Assembly: GCA_030152405.1 (NCBI GenBank)
Contig: JASLJL010000517.1
Location: forward strand, 1-7,850
Source of the DNA: Gordonia sp. (in: high G+C Gram-positive bacteria)
GTDB taxonomy: Bacteria; Actinomycetota; Actinomycetes; Mycobacteriales; Mycobacteriaceae
Direction of reading: 5' to 3'
DNA length: 7,850 nt
Part shown: piece by piece, positions 1 to 7,850 of the stretch
How positions within the stretch are numbered: position 1 is the first letter of the stretch
Layout of the letters: each line of letters begins with the position of its first letter
Position numbers and translations under genes: made by a program
The notes under the pieces: model-generated
What the model was told of the DNA's origin: nothing
Database searches by the model: none
What the model saw: only the letters and a program-made list of their open reading frames with translations

Positions 1-52
1 CGCGCGGACCACGGACCGCGAACACGCGCCGACCGTAGTCGATTCGATCCAT
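1..52 (-). CDS. Start of a probable second FecCD-family permease (cut by the left edge)
   Basis: An ATG at 52-50 opens a frame that stays open to the left edge and encodes 17 residues, MDRIDYGRRVFAVRGPR. It starts only 5 bases after the stop of the preceding FecCD permease. A short polar start with a DxG-R-V-x-x-x-R pattern resembles the N-terminus of actinobacterial FepG-type permeases as I recall them, and FecCD subunits commonly come as a tandem pair that forms the transmembrane heterodimer of a ferric-siderophore importer. The call therefore rests mainly on gene order and spacing; 17 residues are too few for a family assignment. No strong Shine-Dalgarno is visible, so translation may depend on coupling to the upstream gene. 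The ATP-binding subunit would be expected further downstream, outside the window. Confidence 0.6.
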   Translation of the reverse strand, partial: MDRIDYGRRVFAVRGPR

Positions 53-57
53 CGAGT

Positions 58-1134
58 TCACAGTTCGCTCGCCGTCCGTCGGCGGGCCAGCGCGATCAGA
101 ACCGGTGCGCCGATGAAGGCGGTGATGATGCCCGCGGGAATCTCCTCGTCGTTCAACGTCACCCGGCCGAGCATGTCTGCACAGACCACCAGGATCGCCC
201 CGCCCACCAGGCTGAACGGCAGGATCCACCGCTGATCGGGCCCGACGATCCACCGCACCACGTGCGGGATCATCAGGCCGACGAACCCGATCGGGCCCGC
301 TGCTGCGGTCGCGGCGCCACACATCAGGGTCACCGCCGCGACGCCGAGGATGCGGACCCGCGTGAGCGGGACACCGAGTGCGACGGCCAGATCGTCGCCG
401 AGGGCCACCGCGTTCAACGCGCGCGCCACGAGCACCGCGACGACTGCGCCGACGAGCACGAAGGCGGCCATTCCGATCACCACGCCGAATCCTCGATTGG
501 TGATCGAGCCGGCCTGCCAGAACCGCATGGTCGTGAACGCCGCGGAGTCGATGAGGACCATGCCCTGCGTGACGCCTCCGAGGAAGGCCGCCAATGCGAC
601 GCCGGCGAGTGCCAGCCGGACCGGTGTCGCACCGGCCCGGCCGCTGTTGGCGAGCGCGTACACCACCACGGCGGCGACGGCGGCTCCGATCAGCGCGAAC
701 CACACGTATCCCCAGTAGCTGCCGATCCCGAAGACCGACACCGCGATCACGATCGCGAACGCAGACCCGGCGTTGACGCCGAGGATGCCCGGGTCGGCGA
801 GCGGGTTGCGGGTCATCGCCTGGATGATCGCGCCCGACATCGCCAGCGCCGCGCCGACGAGGATCGCGAGCAGTCCGCGCGGGATCCGCTGATCCCACAG
901 GACGTTCACCTCGTCGAGGTTCGGGTTGCCCGGTGACCGATCGGCGTGAATCAACGCCTCGATCACGTGCGACACCGGGATGTCCCGCACGCCCACTCCC
1001 AGGCTGACCACGAACAGCGCGACGACTGCGGCGATCGCGACGGCCATCGCGATCGACCGCAGTCGATTCGATCGCATCAGCCCCTGGGGCGCTCCGCGAT
1101 CGGAGGTCGTCTCCGAGGACGACCCGTGGTGCAC
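58..1134 (-). CDS. Ferric-siderophore ABC importer permease, FecCD family
   Basis: Integral-membrane subunit of a BtuC/FepD-type importer that would pass a ferric siderophore from the binding lipoprotein into the cytoplasm. The 358 residues are almost wholly hydrophobic with the usual multi-helix FecCD profile. Family landmarks are in order: RIPR at 83-86, the QAMTRNPLADPGILG block from 105, MRFWQAGS at 203-210, the coupling-region GPIGFVGLMIPHVVR at 280-294, and a C-terminal EIPAGIITAFIGAP block from 331 ending in Arg-rich tail. Length matches the family (about 330-360). The start shown is a GTG 5 bases after the lipoprotein stop, with a weak AAGAG eight bases upstream. An alternative ATG at 1077-1075, preceded by AGGGG, would trim 19 polar residues and is quite possible. 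Immediately followed by a second probable permease, so it likely works as a heterodimer. Substrate cannot be read from the sequence. Confidence 0.93.
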   Translation of the reverse strand: MHHGSSSETTSDRGAPQGLMRSNRLRSIAMAVAIAAVVALFVVSLGVGVRDIPVSHVIEALIHADRSPGNPNLDEVNVLWDQRIPRGLLAILVGAALAMSGAIIQAMTRNPLADPGILGVNAGSAFAIVIAVSVFGIGSYWGYVWFALIGAAVAAVVVYALANSGRAGATPVRLALAGVALAAFLGGVTQGMVLIDSAAFTTMRFWQAGSITNRGFGVVIGMAAFVLVGAVVAVLVARALNAVALGDDLAVALGVPLTRVRILGVAAVTLMCGAATAAAGPIGFVGLMIPHVVRWIVGPDQRWILPFSLVGGAILVVCADMLGRVTLNDEEIPAGIITAFIGAPVLIALARRRTASEL

Positions 1135-1139
1135 TGCGG

Positions 1140-2144
1140 TCAGCTCTTGACCTTTCCGGCTGCCGACGTCAGCGCATCACGCACGCCGGCATCGTCGAGG
1201 ACGTAGTTCATGTTGAGGTACGTCGGCGTTCCGGCCGCCTCGGCCAGCGCCTTGTTCTCGATCGTCCGACCGTCGCGCACCACTGCGAGGTTCTTGAACA
1301 CCGAGTTGTCGGTGATCTCCTTGCGGTCGGCGTAGAAGTTCAGGATCAACACGTCGCGATCCAGCGACGACAGGTCCTCCAGCGAGGGCTGCGCCGGGTC
1401 GGTCGACGGCGGCGGAACGAGTCCGAACATCTTCAGGTAGTTCGCCACGTACGGCTCGACGGAGTCGTTCGACAGGCCTCCGCCGATGTACTGGACGGCG
1501 AGGGCGGCGGTCTTGCCGACGACGCTCGGGTTGTCCGCACGCCACTGCGCGGCCTTCGCATCGGTGTCGGCGATGACCTTCTCAGCCTCGCTCTCCTTGC
1601 CGAGCGCCTTGGCGACGGTCCGCAGGAAGGTGGGAGCATCGACGTCGGACGGCGACGTGAACGGCTTCGGGAAGGTGACGACCGGCGCGATCTTGCTCAG
1701 TTGCTTGTAGGTGTCGTCCATGTACCAGCTTCCGACGGCGAGGATCAGGTCCGGACGAGCCTTGACGACGTCTTCGGTTCGGATCTCGTAGGAGGTTCCG
1801 GTCCAGATCCGCTCCGGGTCGGCGCCTTCCTTCTTCAATGCGTCGGTCGTCCAGGTGTTGAACGGGAAGTCCTTGTACTCGGCGACCACGCTCGGGGTGA
1901 CCCCGAGCGCCTGCGCCGCATTGAGATCGGCTTCAGAGACGGCGAGGATCCGCTTGGGCGACGCGGGGATCTTGCTTGTTCCGAATGCGTTCTCGAGGGT
2001 GATCTGCGCGCCGCCCGCGTCGTCGGAGTCGTCGTTGCCACAGGCGCCGAGCACTGCCGCGAGGAGCGCGATGACGGCGATCAGGACGCCGGCGACGAGA
2101 CCGCGGCCTCTCCGGGTCGAGCGAGTCGGGATCGTCTGCTTCAT
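1140..2144 (-). CDS. Siderophore-binding lipoprotein of an ABC importer (class III, FecB/FepB-like)
   Basis: Extracytoplasmic solute-binding protein (334 residues) that captures ferric siderophore and hands it to the FecCD permease encoded just downstream. It has an Arg-rich N-terminus, a hydrophobic stretch from about 15 to 33 and a lipobox LGAC with the acylated Cys at 35, then an acidic Gly/Asp linker. The body has the two-lobe periplasmic-binding pattern: PKRILAVSEADLNAAQALG, then DVVKARPDLILAVGSW with the following KIAPVV strand, a long helical link, and a second lobe including DRDVLILNFY. The frame is open further upstream to 2219, but the ATG at 2144 is chosen because GAAGGAA sits six bases before it and because it puts the signal peptide at the N-terminus; the longer start would overlap the previous gene and bury the signal. 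A candidate iron-dependent operator lies 54 bases upstream. The ligand is inferred from the neighbouring NRPS, not from residues. Confidence 0.92.
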   Translation of the reverse strand: MKQTIPTRSTRRGRGLVAGVLIAVIALLAAVLGACGNDDSDDAGGAQITLENAFGTSKIPASPKRILAVSEADLNAAQALGVTPSVVAEYKDFPFNTWTTDALKKEGADPERIWTGTSYEIRTEDVVKARPDLILAVGSWYMDDTYKQLSKIAPVVTFPKPFTSPSDVDAPTFLRTVAKALGKESEAEKVIADTDAKAAQWRADNPSVVGKTAALAVQYIGGGLSNDSVEPYVANYLKMFGLVPPPSTDPAQPSLEDLSSLDRDVLILNFYADRKEITDNSVFKNLAVVRDGRTIENKALAEAAGTPTYLNMNYVLDDAGVRDALTSAAGKVKS

Positions 2145-2150
2145 GGAATG

Positions 2151-2157
2151 TTCCTTC
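2151..2157 (-). promoter_or_regulatory. Shine-Dalgarno of the binding-lipoprotein gene
   Basis: GAAGGAA on the minus strand, with a six-base spacer to the ATG at 2144-2142. It is the strongest ribosome binding site near this gene and decides for this start over the longer open frame that begins at 2219. Confidence 0.75.
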
Positions 2158-2193
2158 GATGTGTGGAGTGGATCGGCTCGCCGACCACTCGGG

Positions 2194-2217
2194 TGAATTA
2201 AGCGTAGCCTAAGCTTC
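2194..2217 (-). promoter_or_regulatory. Candidate DtxR/IdeR-type iron box
   Basis: On the minus strand 2217-2199 reads GAAGCTTAGGCTACGCTTA. Its core TTAGGCTAC matches eight of nine central bases of the IdeR/DtxR consensus (TTAGGTTAGGCTAACCTAA), and 13 of 19 overall. The 17 bases AAGCTTAGGCTACGCTT match their own reverse complement at 14 of 17 positions. A second register shifted by five bases (2212-2194, TTAGGCTACGCTTAATTCA) also matches 13 of 19. In this regulator family, iron-loaded repressor binds such boxes and shuts off siderophore genes. The placement, 54 bases before the lipoprotein ATG in the only real gap of the window, is what an operator would need. The box includes the TAG stop (2211-2209) of the upstream ABC gene. 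The match is partial, so this is a good candidate and not a certainty. Confidence 0.6.
2201..2211 (-). promoter_or_regulatory. Possible -10 elements inside the iron box
   Basis: TAGGCT (2211-2206) and TACGCT (2206-2201) on the minus strand both fit the actinobacterial TAnnnT pattern. Either would give a leader of roughly 50 bases before the lipoprotein ATG, and both would be covered by a repressor on the box. No convincing -35 hexamer is visible, and TAnnnT occurs easily by chance. Confidence 0.35.
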
Positions 2218-3981
2218 ATCGCGCCCCTTAGCCCAGGCTGCCCATATCTCGCTGTATCGGCCTCCCGACGCCACCAGCTCTGCGTGTGGACCGGACTCCA
2301 CGACGCGTCCTGCCTCGAGGTGGACGATCCGGTCGGCAGCGGCCGCCTGGCTGAGCCGATGAGCGATGACGAGCGCCGAACGACCTGCGAGGACCGCCGC
2401 CGCCGACTCCTCGAGGACGCCTGCGCCGACGCTGCCCGCGTCGGCGGTCGCCTCGTCGACGATCACGACGTCGGGATCGAGCAGGTCTATCCGAGCGAGC
2501 GCCAACTGCTGGGCGACCATCGCGTCCACCTGGTGACCGTGCTCGCCGACCACCGTGTCGAGCCCGTCGTCGAGGCCGCGCGCCCACCCCGCGGCGCCGA
2601 CCTTCTCCAGTGCGGCCCACACTCGCTCGACGTCTGCGTCGGGCCTGCCCAGCAGCAGGTCTTCGCGCAACGTCCCGGAGAACACGTGGACCTCCTGCGT
2701 CAGTAATGCCACGCGGCGCGCACGATCGGCGTCCGGGATGTCCCGGACCGGCACTCCACCGAGTGACACCGATCCGCTGCCCGCCGGGTGGATTCCCGCC
2801 AGGACGGTTGCGAGCGTGCTCTTTCCGGCGCCGGACATGCCGACCAGCGCGACGTGCTCGCCCGGTCGGACGGCGACGGACACGCCGTGCAGAATCGAGT
2901 GCTCCGGCGAGTAGCCGAAGTCGATGTCGGACGCGACCAACCCGCTGCCGTCGTCGTGCCGGGTGTGGTCGACCTCGACGTCCTGACCGGGCAGGTCGAG
3001 CACTCCGACGATGCGGCCGAGTGCGGCGGCGCCGGACTGCAGATCGTCGAGCACGTACATGACCTGTCCGATCGGGTCGAACAGTGCGAGGAAGAAGAGC
3101 ATCGCGGCGGTGGTCGCGCCGACGGTCACCGCACCGTCGCCGACCAGGACGAACCCGATGACGAGGATCACAGCCATCCCGATGAACTCACCGAGGTTCA
3201 GCCGCCCCGCGAGCCTGTTCTGCAGAACCGTGGCCTGCATCGACCGTCGGACGACGGCCCACGAATGGCTGTCGATCCGCTCGCTCAGCGGAGCCCCGAG
3301 GTCGAACGCGCGCACAGTCGGCAGACCCTGCACCGGTCCGAGCACGTGATGCGCGCGCTCGGCCGCCGCCGTCCGCTCGGCGGCGTACACCGCGGGCGCC
3401 TGGCGGACGTACATGCGCGCCGTGACGTAGTACAGCGGCGCCGTCACGACTGCGACCAGCAGGAACCGCCAATCGATCGCGGCGAGTCCGATCACCGTCA
3501 CGACGACGCCCGCTTGTGCCATCAACAACGACGGAAGCGCGGTTCCGATGGCTTCGCTGACCTTGTCCACGTCGTCGGTGGCGCGCGACAGCACGTCTCC
3601 GCTGCCCGCCGCCTCCACTTGAGCGACGGGCAGGCGCAGGACGCCGGCGAGCATCTCCTCGCGGAGTTCGGCCAGGACCGACTCGAAGACCGACGCCGCG
3701 GTCGCGATGCCGATCCCGGCGCACAGCGCGCAGGCGACGGCGGCGACGACCATGAACACTCCCCGCACCGCTATGTCGGACGCCTCACCGCCCTGCGCGA
3801 CGACGTCGACGATCGAACCGAGCAGTCGCGGCGTGACCAGTCCGAATGCGCCGGAGGCGGTCATCGCGACGACGACCACCGCCAGCCCGGCTCGATGTCG
3901 GCCCAGATGCGACACGAGATGACGGGCGGTTCGTCGCCAGTCCGCCACCGGGAGTCGGACTTGGTTCGGGTGTGCGCTCAT
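2209..3981 (-). CDS. ABC half-transporter (TMD-NBD) with intact Walker motifs but a lost LSGGQ signature
   Basis: A 590-residue type IV (exporter-fold) ABC half-transporter: six-helix membrane domain over about residues 1-320, then a nucleotide-binding domain. An aromatic A-loop (FGYS), Walker A GMSGAGKS (381-388, Lys387), Q-loop Gln429, Walker B IVDE (Asp509-Glu510) and H-loop His541 are all present. The signature, normally LSGGQ, reads VDAMV (485-489), and the D-loop SALD position reads ADAG (513-516), although the following QLALAR helix is intact, so this is substitution and not a frameshift. It can bind ATP but must borrow a signature from a partner, which the neighbouring gene supplies. 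The ATG at 3981 is chosen because it overlaps the previous stop as ATGA and has AGGGG eight bases upstream; a longer frame to 4059 would run 80 bases into the previous gene. No siderophore-interaction (SIP) domain as in IrtA. Likely siderophore export (ExiT-like); YbtPQ-like import cannot be excluded. Confidence 0.92.
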   Translation of the reverse strand: MSAHPNQVRLPVADWRRTARHLVSHLGRHRAGLAVVVVAMTASGAFGLVTPRLLGSIVDVVAQGGEASDIAVRGVFMVVAAVACALCAGIGIATAASVFESVLAELREEMLAGVLRLPVAQVEAAGSGDVLSRATDDVDKVSEAIGTALPSLLMAQAGVVVTVIGLAAIDWRFLLVAVVTAPLYYVTARMYVRQAPAVYAAERTAAAERAHHVLGPVQGLPTVRAFDLGAPLSERIDSHSWAVVRRSMQATVLQNRLAGRLNLGEFIGMAVILVIGFVLVGDGAVTVGATTAAMLFFLALFDPIGQVMYVLDDLQSGAAALGRIVGVLDLPGQDVEVDHTRHDDGSGLVASDIDFGYSPEHSILHGVSVAVRPGEHVALVGMSGAGKSTLATVLAGIHPAGSGSVSLGGVPVRDIPDADRARRVALLTQEVHVFSGTLREDLLLGRPDADVERVWAALEKVGAAGWARGLDDGLDTVVGEHGHQVDAMVAQQLALARIDLLDPDVVIVDEATADAGSVGAGVLEESAAAVLAGRSALVIAHRLSQAAAADRIVHLEAGRVVESGPHAELVASGGRYSEIWAAWAKGRDEA

Positions 3982-5699
3982 CGGGTGATCCCCTGGCTCG
4001 TCGAGTCGAGTGAAACGGTCGCGTCGAGTCGGACCACGGTGTCGGCGGCCGCGATCCACGCGGGCGACTGGGTGAACACGACGGTCGCGGCATCGGTGCG
4101 AGCGGCGCGGACGCGCTCGGTGACCGTCGCCTCGGTGATCGAGTCGACCGCCGTGGTCGGGTCGGTGAGCACCAGGAACGACGACTCCGCGGCGAGTGCG
4201 CGAGCGAGGCCGACACGCTGCCGCTGTCCTCCCGAGAGCATCTGCCCGGCTTCCCCGACCGGAGTGTCGAGCCCGTCGGACAGGACCGCGGCGACGTCGT
4301 CACAGGCCGCCGCGAAGACTGCGCGCGAGACTCTGCCTGTCCCGTCCCGGTCAGCGTCGTCGACGACGGCCGCGACGTTCTCGATCACGGACCCCTCGAA
4401 GAGGTGAGGCGCGTGGGGCACCACGCGCACCGTCGACCGACCGGTGTCGTGATCGAGGTCGGCGACGTCGGTTCCGCCGACGCGGACAGCGGCGCCCGGG
4501 ATCTCTTCTTCCCGAGCCATCGCCGCGGTGAGAATCCTGCCGGTGGCCTGGTCGGCGGCGATCACGGTCAGGCCGCGCTCGGGGATGACCAGGTCCGGCA
4601 CACCGGCGACCCCGGTGACGGTGAGCGGCCCCGCCGACGCCGACGCGTCGCCCGCCCGCACTCCCGGCCCCGCCTGCAGCACCGAGAGGACACGACCCGC
4701 GCTCGGCACGGCGCCGTTCCACACCGCGCCGAAGTTGGTTCCGATCGCGTTGAGCGGGCCCATGATGAACTGGGTGAGACCGACGACGGTGATCAGCTGT
4801 CCCAGACTCAGCTGACCGTCGACCGCCATGGCACCGGCCGCGAGGCCGACCGCGATCACGAAGATCGACGACACGGTCTGCAGCAGTGCGACATAGGCAC
4901 CCTCGGTACGCATCGCCGCTATCGCGTGATCGCGGGCGCGTCCGCTGGCGGCGCGGTAGCGTCGGGCCGCCTCCGCCTCCGCACCGATGCCTTTGAGAAC
5001 ACGGAAACCGGCGACCAGGTCGCCCGCGGTGCCGGCCGCGAGGCCGACCGACTCCTGCTGTTGCTCGGTTCGGGCGCGCAGGGGCGCGCCGGCCCGGTCG
5101 AGGACCCAGAACATCGCAGGCGCACCGAGCAGCACGGCGACGCCGAGCGGCCAGGAGATCCACAGCAGCACCACGCCCGCGACCACGACCGCCGCCATCT
5201 CGCCGACCGGGAACACCGCCAGCAGCACCGCGCGGGACAGTCGGGCGACGTCCGAGGTCGCGATGCTCAGCGCCGTGCCGGGCAGCCGTGCGGGTCCGTC
5301 TGTGCCGGCCGGATCGAGCATCCGGTCGGTGACCCGCATGCGGAACTGATGCTCGATCACGTTCAGCGCATACATCGCCATGCGGTCGCCGAAGCGCCAG
5401 GTGACCGAGAGCAGCACGAAGTCGGCGGCGAGCACGACGATCCACAGGACGAGCGCGTCCCAGTCCTGGGCGAGGACGGCGCGGTCGATCGCGAGCCCCA
5501 TCACGACAGGCACGAGCGCTTCGCCCACGAAGTGCAGGATCACCAGAATCATCGCCGGGATCGCGTACCGGTTGGCGCCCCACATGGTCCGCAGCACCAG
5601 TCGTCGTGGAGTCGTAGCACCGTCGACTCGTACGCGGGTACCTCGCTCGGCGGGTCGGTCGCCCGCCAGGTATCCGGTGGGTGTCCGGGGGGATGTCAT
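3978..5699 (-). CDS. ABC half-transporter (TMD-NBD) with intact LSGGQ but degenerate Walker A, Walker B, Q- and H-loops
   Basis: A 573-residue exporter-fold half-transporter: membrane domain over about residues 30-340 (including the cytoplasmic-loop segment DLVAGFRVLKGIGAE), then a shortened nucleotide-binding domain. The signature LSGGQRQR (488-495) and D-loop TAVD (516-519) are canonical. The ATP-holding motifs are not: the Walker A position reads ADQATGRIL (382-390; Lys to Arg388, Ser to Ile389), the Q-loop Gln is His429, Walker B reads LVLTD (Asp to Thr512, catalytic Glu to Asp513), and the H-loop His is Gln544. The aromatic A-loop region is also missing. The frame and surrounding sequence are otherwise clean. 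Alone it should not hydrolyse ATP; paired with the next gene it supplies the missing signature. Start at 5699 overlaps the NRPS stop as ATGA, with AAGGA six bases upstream. Probably the non-catalytic half of a siderophore transporter. Confidence 0.92.
   Translation of the reverse strand: MTSPRTPTGYLAGDRPAERGTRVRVDGATTPRRLVLRTMWGANRYAIPAMILVILHFVGEALVPVVMGLAIDRAVLAQDWDALVLWIVVLAADFVLLSVTWRFGDRMAMYALNVIEHQFRMRVTDRMLDPAGTDGPARLPGTALSIATSDVARLSRAVLLAVFPVGEMAAVVVAGVVLLWISWPLGVAVLLGAPAMFWVLDRAGAPLRARTEQQQESVGLAAGTAGDLVAGFRVLKGIGAEAEAARRYRAASGRARDHAIAAMRTEGAYVALLQTVSSIFVIAVGLAAGAMAVDGQLSLGQLITVVGLTQFIMGPLNAIGTNFGAVWNGAVPSAGRVLSVLQAGPGVRAGDASASAGPLTVTGVAGVPDLVIPERGLTVIAADQATGRILTAAMAREEEIPGAAVRVGGTDVADLDHDTGRSTVRVVPHAPHLFEGSVIENVAAVVDDADRDGTGRVSRAVFAAACDDVAAVLSDGLDTPVGEAGQMLSGGQRQRVGLARALAAESSFLVLTDPTTAVDSITEATVTERVRAARTDAATVVFTQSPAWIAAADTVVRLDATVSLDSTSQGITR
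3990..3994 (-). promoter_or_regulatory. Shine-Dalgarno of the second ABC gene
   Basis: AGGGG on the minus strand, eight bases before the ATG at 3981-3979 and lying within the last codons of the upstream ABC gene. It supports the ATGA-overlap start over an upstream in-frame start at 4059. Confidence 0.65.
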
Positions 5700-7850
5700 C
5701 GGCGGTCCTTCACAGTCTCGGTTGAGGTCTCGGTCGTGTCGTCGAACTTGTGTCGCCAGGCTCGGGCGAGTTCGTCCACGAGGTCGTCGTCGCCGAGCAC
5801 CGTCAGGTGGGGAGCTCCGGTGTCGGAGAGTCGATACCTGGCGACGATCGGATAGCGCAGCTCGGCGCCTTCGCGCTCGGGTGAGTCGACTGATCCGTAC
5901 AGCCGCGTCACCAGGACGCGAGCGCTCGGCCGTCGGCGTGACGCCTTGCGGATGTCCGGATCGTGGAGTTGTGCGAGCGGATGCCAGTGCCGCGACGCCG
6001 CGGGTCCCGCGTGCTCAAGTGGAACCGTCGGGGTGAACGGCCCGACGGCGACCTCGCCGACCCCGGGTATCGCCCGCAGGTCGGTCTCGACGTCGATCAG
6101 GACGTCGTCGCCGAGGAGGGCTTTCGCGGCGTCGGCGAGCGCGGCCTCCACGCGGCTGAGTTCTGCGTCTCCTCCCCCGCGTGCCGCCGACCGATACGTC
6201 CCGAACGCGTCGTCGTCGCGCGCGGTCTCGAAGGCGGAGGCGACGTCCACGACTGCCGGCGAGTCCACGGCGGTCGCCTCGACGATCGAGAGCAGCGAGC
6301 GGTGCAGGGAGACCCGGTCCACTGCGAGCGCGTGCCCGGCCAGCACCACGCCGACACCGTCGTCGCAGATGACCGCTGTCGCCGCCATCGCGTCGCCTCG
6401 CGAGATGTCGACGCCGGATCTCGCTCGGTCGGCCGCAGCAGACCGGACGTCGTCGAACGCCTCGCCCGGGCGTTCGAGCACCGTCAGTGCGATGTGTGCG
6501 TCGTCTCCGCCGGTGTCGGACGCCCAGATCAGCCGGTTCCGCGGGATCACGCGCATCGTCGCCGCGTCGATCGACGCGGCGAGCCGGTCCACTCCGGTCC
6601 TCACCTGATCGAGGTCCGTCGCGCGACCGATCAGACCGGCTTCGGTGTAGACGAGATCGGCGAGGGCCAGGTCGGACGTCCGGATCTGATGGAGAACGGG
6701 AGTCGGAGGCACGGGTGTCCGTTCGACGGGCTGCGCGCAGTGCGCAGCGAGCCCCGCCGCAGTCCGAGACCGGAACACATCCTGCGTCGTGAGCTCGAAC
6801 CCGCTGCGTATGGCGCGCGCGACGACGGCCACCGAGCTGATGCTGTCACCGCCGAGGGCGAAGAAGTCGTCGTCCGGCCCGACCTCAGTCCGGCCCAGCA
6901 CGTCGCCGATGATGGCGGCCAACGTGCGCTCGGCGTCATTCGCCGGTGCACGCGCCGCACCGCTGACGGACGCACTCGGGTCGGGCAGGGCGGCACGATC
7001 GACCTTGCCGCTCGGAGTGAGCGGGAGCTCGTCGAGCACGACGATGCGGTCGGGAACTGCGTGCCGCGGCAGTCGCTCGCCGAGTCCGCCGAGCAGCGAC
7101 GCCGTCTCCAGCACGGCACCGCGCACCGGGACGACGTAACCGACGAGCGCACCGGACCGCCCTGCCGTGTCGACGACCGCTGCCGCCACGCCGGGCGACG
7201 CCAGCAGCGCCGACTCGACCTCGCCCGCCTCGACCCGCATGCCGCGGACGGAGAACTGGAGGTCGGCGCGCCCGTGCAGGACGATCGTCCCGCCTGTCGT
7301 CCGCGCGGCGAGGTCGCCCGTGCGATACAGCCGATCCCCGGGAGCCCCGGCCGGGTCGGCGACGAATCGACTCGCGGTGAGTGCGGGCGCCCCGTGATAG
7401 CCGCGTGCCAACTGCGGTCCCGCGACGTAGAGCTCGCCGATCGTCCCGTCCAACACGGGACGCAACCACCGATCCAGGATTCGCACCGTCGACCCGCCGA
7501 CCGGACGGCCCACCGTCACGGTGTCCCCGGCTCGGACCTCCCCCGCGGTCACGTCACCGGCGACCTCTGACGAACCGTAGAAGTTCTCGACTCTCGCCCC
7601 GGAGCGGGCGACGAGTTCCACCACGTCGGCCGTCAGCGGCTCGGCGCTGAGAGTCCAGCGACGAACAGACGCGACCTCATCGGCGCACGACCGGCACAGT
7701 TCGGCCGCGACACTCGGAACCGTCGTCACGTCGTCGATCGCCCACCGCTCGACGAGCGCGGCGAGCGCGGTCAGGTCGCGCATCTCGGTGTCGTCTGCGA
7801 TGACGATCCGCTCGGCGCAGAGCGCCGCGGCGAGCAGTTCGGTCAGGCCG
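5696..7850 (-). CDS. Non-ribosomal peptide synthetase, terminal module: adenylation (partial) - carrier - degenerate E/C-like domain
   Basis: The last 717 residues of an NRPS; the frame is open through the right edge, so the N-terminus is missing. Residue numbers here count from the first full codon (7849). The adenylation domain enters just after motif A4 and shows A5 NFYGSSE (89-95), A6 GELYVAGPQLARGY, A7 YRTGDL (from 175), A8 GRADLQFSVRG and A10 SGKVDR with Lys282. The peptidyl carrier follows with LGGDSI; its phosphopantetheine Ser is 336 (6842-6844). The remaining roughly 340 residues look like a worn epimerization/condensation-type domain: HALAVDR at 506-512 where HHxxxDG is expected, VGPFT around 602-606 like the VGWFT block of E domains, and a C-terminal stretch resembling the E-domain end. 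It is about 100 residues short in the middle. No thioesterase or reductase follows. Neighbouring iron-transport genes imply a siderophore product. The substrate of the A domain is unknown. Confidence 0.96.
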   Translation of the reverse strand, partial: GLTELLAAALCAERIVIADDTEMRDLTALAALVERWAIDDVTTVPSVAAELCRSCADEVASVRRWTLSAEPLTADVVELVARSGARVENFYGSSEVAGDVTAGEVRAGDTVTVGRPVGGSTVRILDRWLRPVLDGTIGELYVAGPQLARGYHGAPALTASRFVADPAGAPGDRLYRTGDLAARTTGGTIVLHGRADLQFSVRGMRVEAGEVESALLASPGVAAAVVDTAGRSGALVGYVVPVRGAVLETASLLGGLGERLPRHAVPDRIVVLDELPLTPSGKVDRAALPDPSASVSGAARAPANDAERTLAAIIGDVLGRTEVGPDDDFFALGGDSISSVAVVARAIRSGFELTTQDVFRSRTAAGLAAHCAQPVERTPVPPTPVLHQIRTSDLALADLVYTEAGLIGRATDLDQVRTGVDRLAASIDAATMRVIPRNRLIWASDTGGDDAHIALTVLERPGEAFDDVRSAAADRARSGVDISRGDAMAATAVICDDGVGVVLAGHALAVDRVSLHRSLLSIVEATAVDSPAVVDVASAFETARDDDAFGTYRSAARGGGDAELSRVEAALADAAKALLGDDVLIDVETDLRAIPGVGEVAVGPFTPTVPLEHAGPAASRHWHPLAQLHDPDIRKASRRRPSARVLVTRLYGSVDSPEREGAELRYPIVARYRLSDTGAPHLTVLGDDDLVDELARAWRHKFDDTTETSTETVKDRR

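Follow-up and report, generated by a model that had tools for sequence, protein, structure and literature searches.

We analysed a 7,850-nucleotide stretch of DNA from Gordonia sp. (contig JASLJL010000517.1, positions 1 to 7,850; henceforth referred to as the window), in which two overlapping genes encode ATP-binding cassette (ABC) half-transporters that divide the motifs of their ATP sites between them. The product of 3978-5699 (573 residues) is referred to as B and the product of 2209-3981 (590 residues) as A. In our judgement A and B are likely to be the two halves of an obligate heterodimeric exporter that would draw its power from one ATP site and carry out the siderophore of the adjacent non-ribosomal peptide synthetase (NRPS); we infer the dimerisation of A with B, the direction of transport and the ATP stoichiometry. 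Most likely, the pair belongs to a conserved family of actinobacterial heterodimers in which one ATP site is complete and the other erased, and which in the window's clade serves as a siderophore exporter. The kind of protein is already known, in that CchG and CchI (SCO0491 and SCO0493) of Streptomyces coelicolor are presumed coelichelin exporters; the erased second ATP site is the aspect for which we met no description in the literature searched.

Division of the ATP-site motifs between A and B

In the window, A keeps Lys387 of Walker A, Gln429 of the Q-loop, Asp509-Glu510 of Walker B, His541 of the H-loop and Tyr357 of the A-loop, and has VDAMV (485-489) in the place of the signature and ADAG (513-516) in the place of the D-loop. 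B keeps the signature LSGGQ (488-492) and the D-loop AVDS (517-520), and has AADQATGRIL (381-390) in the place of the P-loop, together with His429, Thr512-Asp513 and Gln544 at the Q-loop, Walker B and H-loop positions. All residues named in a first-pass annotation of the window are present at these positions in both frames. The B residue that lies opposite Lys387 of A varies with a one-residue register and is not a Lys in either register, and B has no aromatic residue at 340-380, the stretch in which A has its A-loop Tyr357. The motifs are thus divided as in a heterodimeric exporter with one degenerate site: one composite site is complete and the other altered, with the residues of each split between the subunits. 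Both proteins are type IV (MsbA-like) half-transporters with both domains above the Pfam cut-offs (ABC_membrane 113.6 bits and ABC_tran 72.2 bits in A; 68.6 and 39.7 bits in B); in B the ABC_tran match runs from profile position 30 onward, so that the N-terminal P-loop part of the profile is unmatched.

The same division was found among homologues, for which we took the best 120 of 1085 hits for B and the best 120 of 3653 hits for A, so that divergent members are under-sampled. Column counts for B are over 119 sequences, with a transmembrane-only fragment lacking the nucleotide-binding domain (NBD; P0077) dropped. LSGGQ and the D-loop Asp (Asp519) are present in 119/119 B homologues; the Walker A Lys is found in 1 of the 119, the Q-loop Gln in 3, the Walker B Asp in 3, the Walker B Glu in 10 and the H-loop His in 8, and most sequences lack Gly at three P-loop columns, where it is retained by 20, 2 and 7 of the 119. 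A search for Walker A as GxxxxGK[ST] gave 0/120 B homologues and 0/55 B loci, against 120/120 A homologues. With this pattern (a stricter one missed one control exporter), Walker A was present in 15/15 rows of control exporters from Gordonia malaquae and from beside the pairs of a sister clade described below; two of these rows come from one gene, one G. malaquae place (L142) was omitted, and several of the exporters are mildly degenerate. Among A homologues, Lys387, Gln429, Asp509, Glu510 and His541 are each present in 120/120 and the A-loop Tyr in 118/120; the signature glycines are absent from all 120, the D-loop Asp is found in 9/120 and Gly516 in 111/120. One A homologue (P0232) has a loose LSGGQ match at residue 393, away from the signature position, and at one of the 57 A loci (L108) the match is partial and Walker A could not be read. 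At B position 513 the acid is retained (Asp in 107/119, Glu in 10/119), and the loss there is thus conservative. In the A-loop stretch the B family has Tyr in 10/119 and any aromatic residue in 73/119, so that A-loop loss is not supported as a trait of the B family.

The mean entropy of the kept-site residues was 0.00 bits in B and 0.12 bits in A, compared with NBD means of 1.79 and 1.28 bits, and that of the lost-site residues was 2.00 and 1.32 bits, approximately the NBD mean. Judged by these alignments, the kept site is under the strictest constraint and the lost site is largely released. The predicted structures (AlphaFold models of nucleotide-free monomers) are in line with the loss of the P-loop: A has a strand at 376-381, a loop and a helix from 387, and a P-loop is present, whereas in B the strand at 376-381 is followed by a helix already from 384 and there is no P-loop. 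Strand 348-358 of A has no counterpart in the B model.

With so many catalytic motifs lost, and with an unpaired copy elsewhere (L132) that has a broken B, it could be argued that decay is under way in one gene or in both and that they no longer function. This explanation is already contradicted, and we give it next to no weight: both frames are open and overlap their neighbours, and kept-site residues are conserved in 119/119 B and 120/120 A homologues. The first-pass annotation had raised a one-off decay as the reading to adopt if homologues had canonical motifs in both halves. The split is family-wide: among the best 120 of each, Walker A was found in no B and the signature glycines in no A, and a one-off decay was rejected.

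Pairing and descent of A and B

In one order, genome searches that scored 3 to 6 candidates per genome placed B in 81 of 197 genomes, at 97 places in all, and A lies on the same contig at 96 of these. A is directly downstream of B at 51 places; at 39 it lies 9-15.5 kb upstream of B, without a change of strand. Of the latter type, 20 stretches were fetched (L078-L097), all 20 hold A, and NRPS sequence separates A and B. Among the remaining seven places, five have an adjacent A (G169:C2, G438, G388, G435 and G517, the last two with A first), one (G387; L085, with a partial A) is of the upstream type, with the NRPS in between, and at one (G498) the two genes are split between contigs. B is followed by A at 9/9 of the loci closest to the window (L001-L009), and A lies beside B at 30/30 loci from the family of the window's relatives (L156-L185). 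B is carried by 137/251 genomes of that family and by 12/346 genomes spread over the phylum. Among the matches listed, which reach down to approximately E 1e-159, an A-profile match was present in 196/197 genomes of the order, whatever its clade. A directly precedes B at L154 and L155, a reversal of the order in the other adjacent pairs. The window's own family also contains a second B group (approximately 430-540 bits), which is an extra copy in some genomes, with up to four B matches per genome.

Seven places at which A appeared to be an orphan were rejected as such: at G388, G435 and G517 it adjoins B, at G498 B is on the other contig, at G358 and G356:C644 (L130 and L131) B is present below the E-value limit, and at G514 (L132) a broken B remnant lies alongside. 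The last (L132:6416-8847) is seemingly a decaying duplicate, and its genome has another A-B pair. The refuting case of the first-pass annotation, either gene standing alone, is not borne out: 96/97 B places have an A on their contig, and the sole seemingly lone A adjoins the broken remnant.

In a tree of 82 rows, obtained by a quick method that gave long-branch warnings, A forms one clade (Shimodaira-Hasegawa-like approximate likelihood-ratio support, SH-aLRT, 99) and B another (100), with largely mirrored branching. The pairwise distances of A and B are correlated (r = 0.962 over 49 pairs), and 0/2000 permutations gave a value as high. Alternatively, A and B could each pair with other half-transporters or act as homodimers. 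We regard this as very unlikely, since A-A dimers would be without a signature and B-B dimers without Walker A, and since A and B occur together at almost all B places and co-diverge.

The loci fall into a clade of 53, henceforth referred to as the siderophore clade (L001-L009, L077, L078-L097, L098-L117 and L130-L132, the last three being placed there by tree and motifs), and a sister clade of 17 (L118-L129 and L133-L137), whose genomes we take to be 'Streptomyces-like'. The split of Walker A and signature is present in the sister clade; its A retains the D-loop Asp and part of the signature, and its B often retains the Walker B Glu. Since A of the sister clade retains it, loss of the D-loop Asp from A was probably a later step specific to the window's clade. 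We lean, by a small measure, towards the view that a whole actinobacterial ABC clade has erased its second nucleotide pocket, including the P-loop, and runs on one ATP per dimer, with stepwise erosion that began before the siderophore and sister branches split. The P-loop of B and the signature of A would then have been lost first and the D-loop Asp of A later in the siderophore branch, and the erased pocket would be older than the split of the siderophore branch from the widespread Streptomyces-like sister branch. At five sister-clade loci (L126, L127, L128, L133 and L134) another pair of ABC exporter halves directly adjoins the sister pair. Where read, this extra pair has LDDP and HRP in one half and ISAGQ in the other; it is mildly degenerate rather than canonical, and its Walker A is intact.

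Siderophore loci and iron-box-like sites

On the minus strand of the window the gene order is NRPS, B, A, a Fe-siderophore-type substrate-binding protein (SBP) and a FecCD permease (Table 1), so that the pair is flanked by NRPS, SBP and FecCD genes inside an NRPS siderophore locus. The NRPS stop and B start, and likewise the B stop and A start, share ATGA overlaps. A longer A frame is possible from a GTG at 4059; because of the ATGA overlap, the start at 3981 is favoured. The nearest named loci are those of G. malaquae and Gordonia spumicola (B identity 84%), and a search of plasmids gave no match above 60% identity. In the NRPS C-terminus, approximately 330 residues past the carrier domain (window 5696-6740, minus strand) match no Pfam family; the sequence GHALAVD within it might be a decayed condensation-type motif.

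Table 1. Features of the window (coordinates on the forward strand)
Feature	Coordinates	Strand	Basis
B subunit, ABC half-transporter, 573 residues: transmembrane domain (TMD) and NBD without P-loop; LSGGQ and D-loop kept	3978..5699	-	motifs, Pfam, model
A subunit, ABC half-transporter, 590 residues: retains residues of Walker A and B and of the A-, Q- and H-loops; lacks the signature and the D-loop Asp	2209..3981	-	motifs, Pfam, model
NRPS gene, 3' part: adenylation-domain end, carrier protein, ~330 C-terminal residues without Pfam match	5696..7849	-	Pfam
Fe-siderophore-type substrate-binding lipoprotein (Peripla_BP_2), lipoprotein-like signal at start	1140..2144	-	Pfam
FecCD-type permease	58..1134	-	
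Weak iron-box-like site, 13/19, at A end, before binding-protein gene	2194..2217	-	13 reached in 1/30 Markov windows
B residues 381-390 (AADQATGRIL), Walker A P-loop position	4530..4559	-	motifs; model helix from 384, just past strand
B signature LSGGQ (488-492), kept	4224..4238	-	119/119 homologues
B D-loop AVDS (517-520), kept	4140..4151	-	Asp519 in 119/119
A Walker A GMSGAGKST (381-389), kept	2815..2841	-	Lys387 in 120/120
A Walker B VVIVDE (505-510), kept	2452..2469	-	Asp509 and Glu510 in 120/120
A signature position VDAMV (485-489), lost	2515..2529	-	neither LSGGQ Gly in any of 120
A D-loop position ADAG (513-516), lost	2434..2445	-	Asp 9/120, Gly 111/120

A gene for FecCD, SBP, ornithine/lysine monooxygenase or siderophore-interacting protein lies in the fetched stretch at 43/53 loci of the siderophore clade and at 0/17 sister loci; the stretches span 13.6 to 20 kb (15 kb in the sister clade), examples of the markers were confirmed by Pfam, and two of the 43 loci rest on weak FecCD matches (L099, 80 bits; L114, 70 bits). 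Candidate regulatory sites were scored out of 19 against an iron-box consensus and are called iron-box-like. Sites of at least 15/19 were found at 19/32 loci with an adjacent pair (a set without L132), at 20/20 coelichelin-like loci and at 0/17 sister loci; the corresponding Markov controls gave 0/64, 0/40 and 0/34 (0/138 in all). A site of at least 14/19 lies no more than 450 bases upstream of the first matched residue of B at 15/30 loci (a set without L130-L132; 0/600 shuffles), and at 0/17 loci of the sister clade (1/340 shuffles). The use of the pair for a siderophore, as the first-pass annotation proposed, thus gains support from the neighbouring genes of the clade and from the sites upstream of B. 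Transcription of the pair would probably be iron-repressed; many relatives have iron-box-like sites, and that of the window is weak. Four loci without markers still have an iron-box-like site (L001, L002, L106 and L115). At three others of the siderophore clade (L105, L130 and L131) markers are lacking and the iron-box-like site is absent or weak (13/19); these pairs may serve another substrate.

The closest parallel in context is the cch cluster, in which CchGI is presumed to export coelichelin and which has four DmdR1 sites (PMC12161575). As in that cluster, the NRPS separates A from B in L078-L097, with FecCD and SBP at 20/20 loci and the ornithine/lysine monooxygenase at 19/20, and in their A and B homologues the motifs are divided as in the window's pair. 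Unlike the overlapping genes of Gordonia, the cch-type A and B genes are approximately 11 kb apart. The likeness to CchG and CchI is drawn through these L078-L097 homologues, and the cited passages on CchGI do not touch on ATP sites.

We also considered whether the pair could import a siderophore in the manner of IrtAB or YbtPQ, heterodimeric importers that share with it the type IV (exporter) fold and a siderophore substrate. The B model matches IrtB and the YbtPQ chains well, and Fe-siderophore uptake genes are present at many loci. However, SBP/FecCD uptake genes are already present in the window and at many loci, neither A nor B carries a siderophore-interacting Pfam domain such as that of IrtA, the pair is often beside biosynthetic genes, as for the presumed exporter CchGI, and an IrtAB complex holds two ATP (PMC10246721). 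An importer is consequently unlikely in our view, and export remains the preferred direction.

A proposed erased pocket compared with known degenerate sites

Among the structures that match the B model best are TM287/288, TmrAB and BmrCD, bacterial type IV exporters that are heterodimers and have one degenerate site, as is proposed for the window's pair; their degeneracy is milder. The mycobacterial efflux pump MsRv1273c/72c is likewise an actinobacterial heterodimer with one degenerate site. The first-pass annotation had likened the losses to those of Pdr5, which has one complete ATP site and another without the Walker A Lys, the Walker B Glu, the H-loop His and the opposite signature (PMC7756269 and PMC8421411). 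This comparison stands only in part: the losses of the Walker A Lys and of the H-loop are shared, but the pair goes further, with the whole P-loop gone from B and the D-loop Asp lost from A, whereas Pdr5 keeps its D-loops and has nucleotide in the degenerate site (PMC8421411). Furthermore, Pdr5 is a full-length pump with NBDs preceding the TMDs, and the window's pair consists of two half-size proteins with the TMD before the NBD; by Pfam neither has the reverse, full-length arrangement of the PDR family.

These systems frame the principal alternative, namely that A and B form an ordinary degenerate-site heterodimer, in which the second pocket binds ATP without hydrolysing it and that ATP helps to hold the NBDs together. 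Degenerate sites hold nucleotide despite motif loss in Pdr5, where the Walker A Lys is absent (PMC8421411), in TM287/288, which binds AMP-PNP there (PMC7756269), and in MsRv1273c/72c, which binds ATP through Walker A and the A-loop (PMC12038006). In keeping with this alternative, some lost-site positions in A and B are conserved, and the A-loop stretch still has an aromatic residue in many B homologues. Conversely, GxxxxGK[ST] is absent from all 120 B homologues and few retain P-loop glycines, and the B model has a helix replacing the P-loop and lacks the counterpart of A strand 348-358. We therefore think a nucleotide-binding second pocket possible but improbable, and consider that the erased pocket of the pair probably goes beyond the degenerate sites of Pdr5, TM287/288 and MsRv1273c/72c, which bind nucleotide. 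No P-loop-less half is described for Pdr5, MsRv1273c/72c or IrtAB in the passages cited, and among the papers listed by open-access full-text searches we recognised none on an actinobacterial ABC pair of which one half lacks the P-loop.

Several observations weigh against a one-ATP siderophore exporter. Three lost-site positions are conserved, B His429 (115/119), B Asp513 (107/119) and A Gly516 (111/120), and the lost pocket is thus under some constraint; an aromatic residue in the A-loop stretch of 73/119 B homologues points the same way. The models are monomers without nucleotide, the B model also resembles chains of IrtB and YbtPQ, and type IV folds, as these two systems illustrate, can also import siderophores. 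Shared descent by itself also yields a correlation of A and B distances. With regard to context, 10/53 loci of the siderophore clade show no siderophore marker, 15/30 loci are without a 14/19 site upstream of B, and the window's own site is weak (13/19).

In the exporter that we propose, one ATP would be sandwiched between the Walker motifs of A and the signature of B in the A-B dimer and hydrolysed there. The opposite pocket, formed by the P-loop-less face of B and the broken signature of A, would not hydrolyse ATP and would probably not bind it, and would instead act as a standing, ATP-free protein-protein hinge, so that in each cycle the interface would be opened and closed on one side by one ATP. 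The A-B pump would release the apo siderophore from the cell, and the Fe-siderophore would return via the adjacent SBP/FecCD system.

The published dead sites compared here still hold nucleotide, and binding and hydrolysis are consequently not cleanly separable in them; a conserved bacterial family with a P-loop-less NBD would permit a direct test of the one against the other and, if our interpretation is true, would be a natural proof that one ATP suffices for an ABC pump. The motif split also provides a rule for spotting A and B partners, even across an intervening NRPS gene, and points to a likely export pump for siderophore clusters in Gordonia, Williamsia and Streptomyces-like bacteria.

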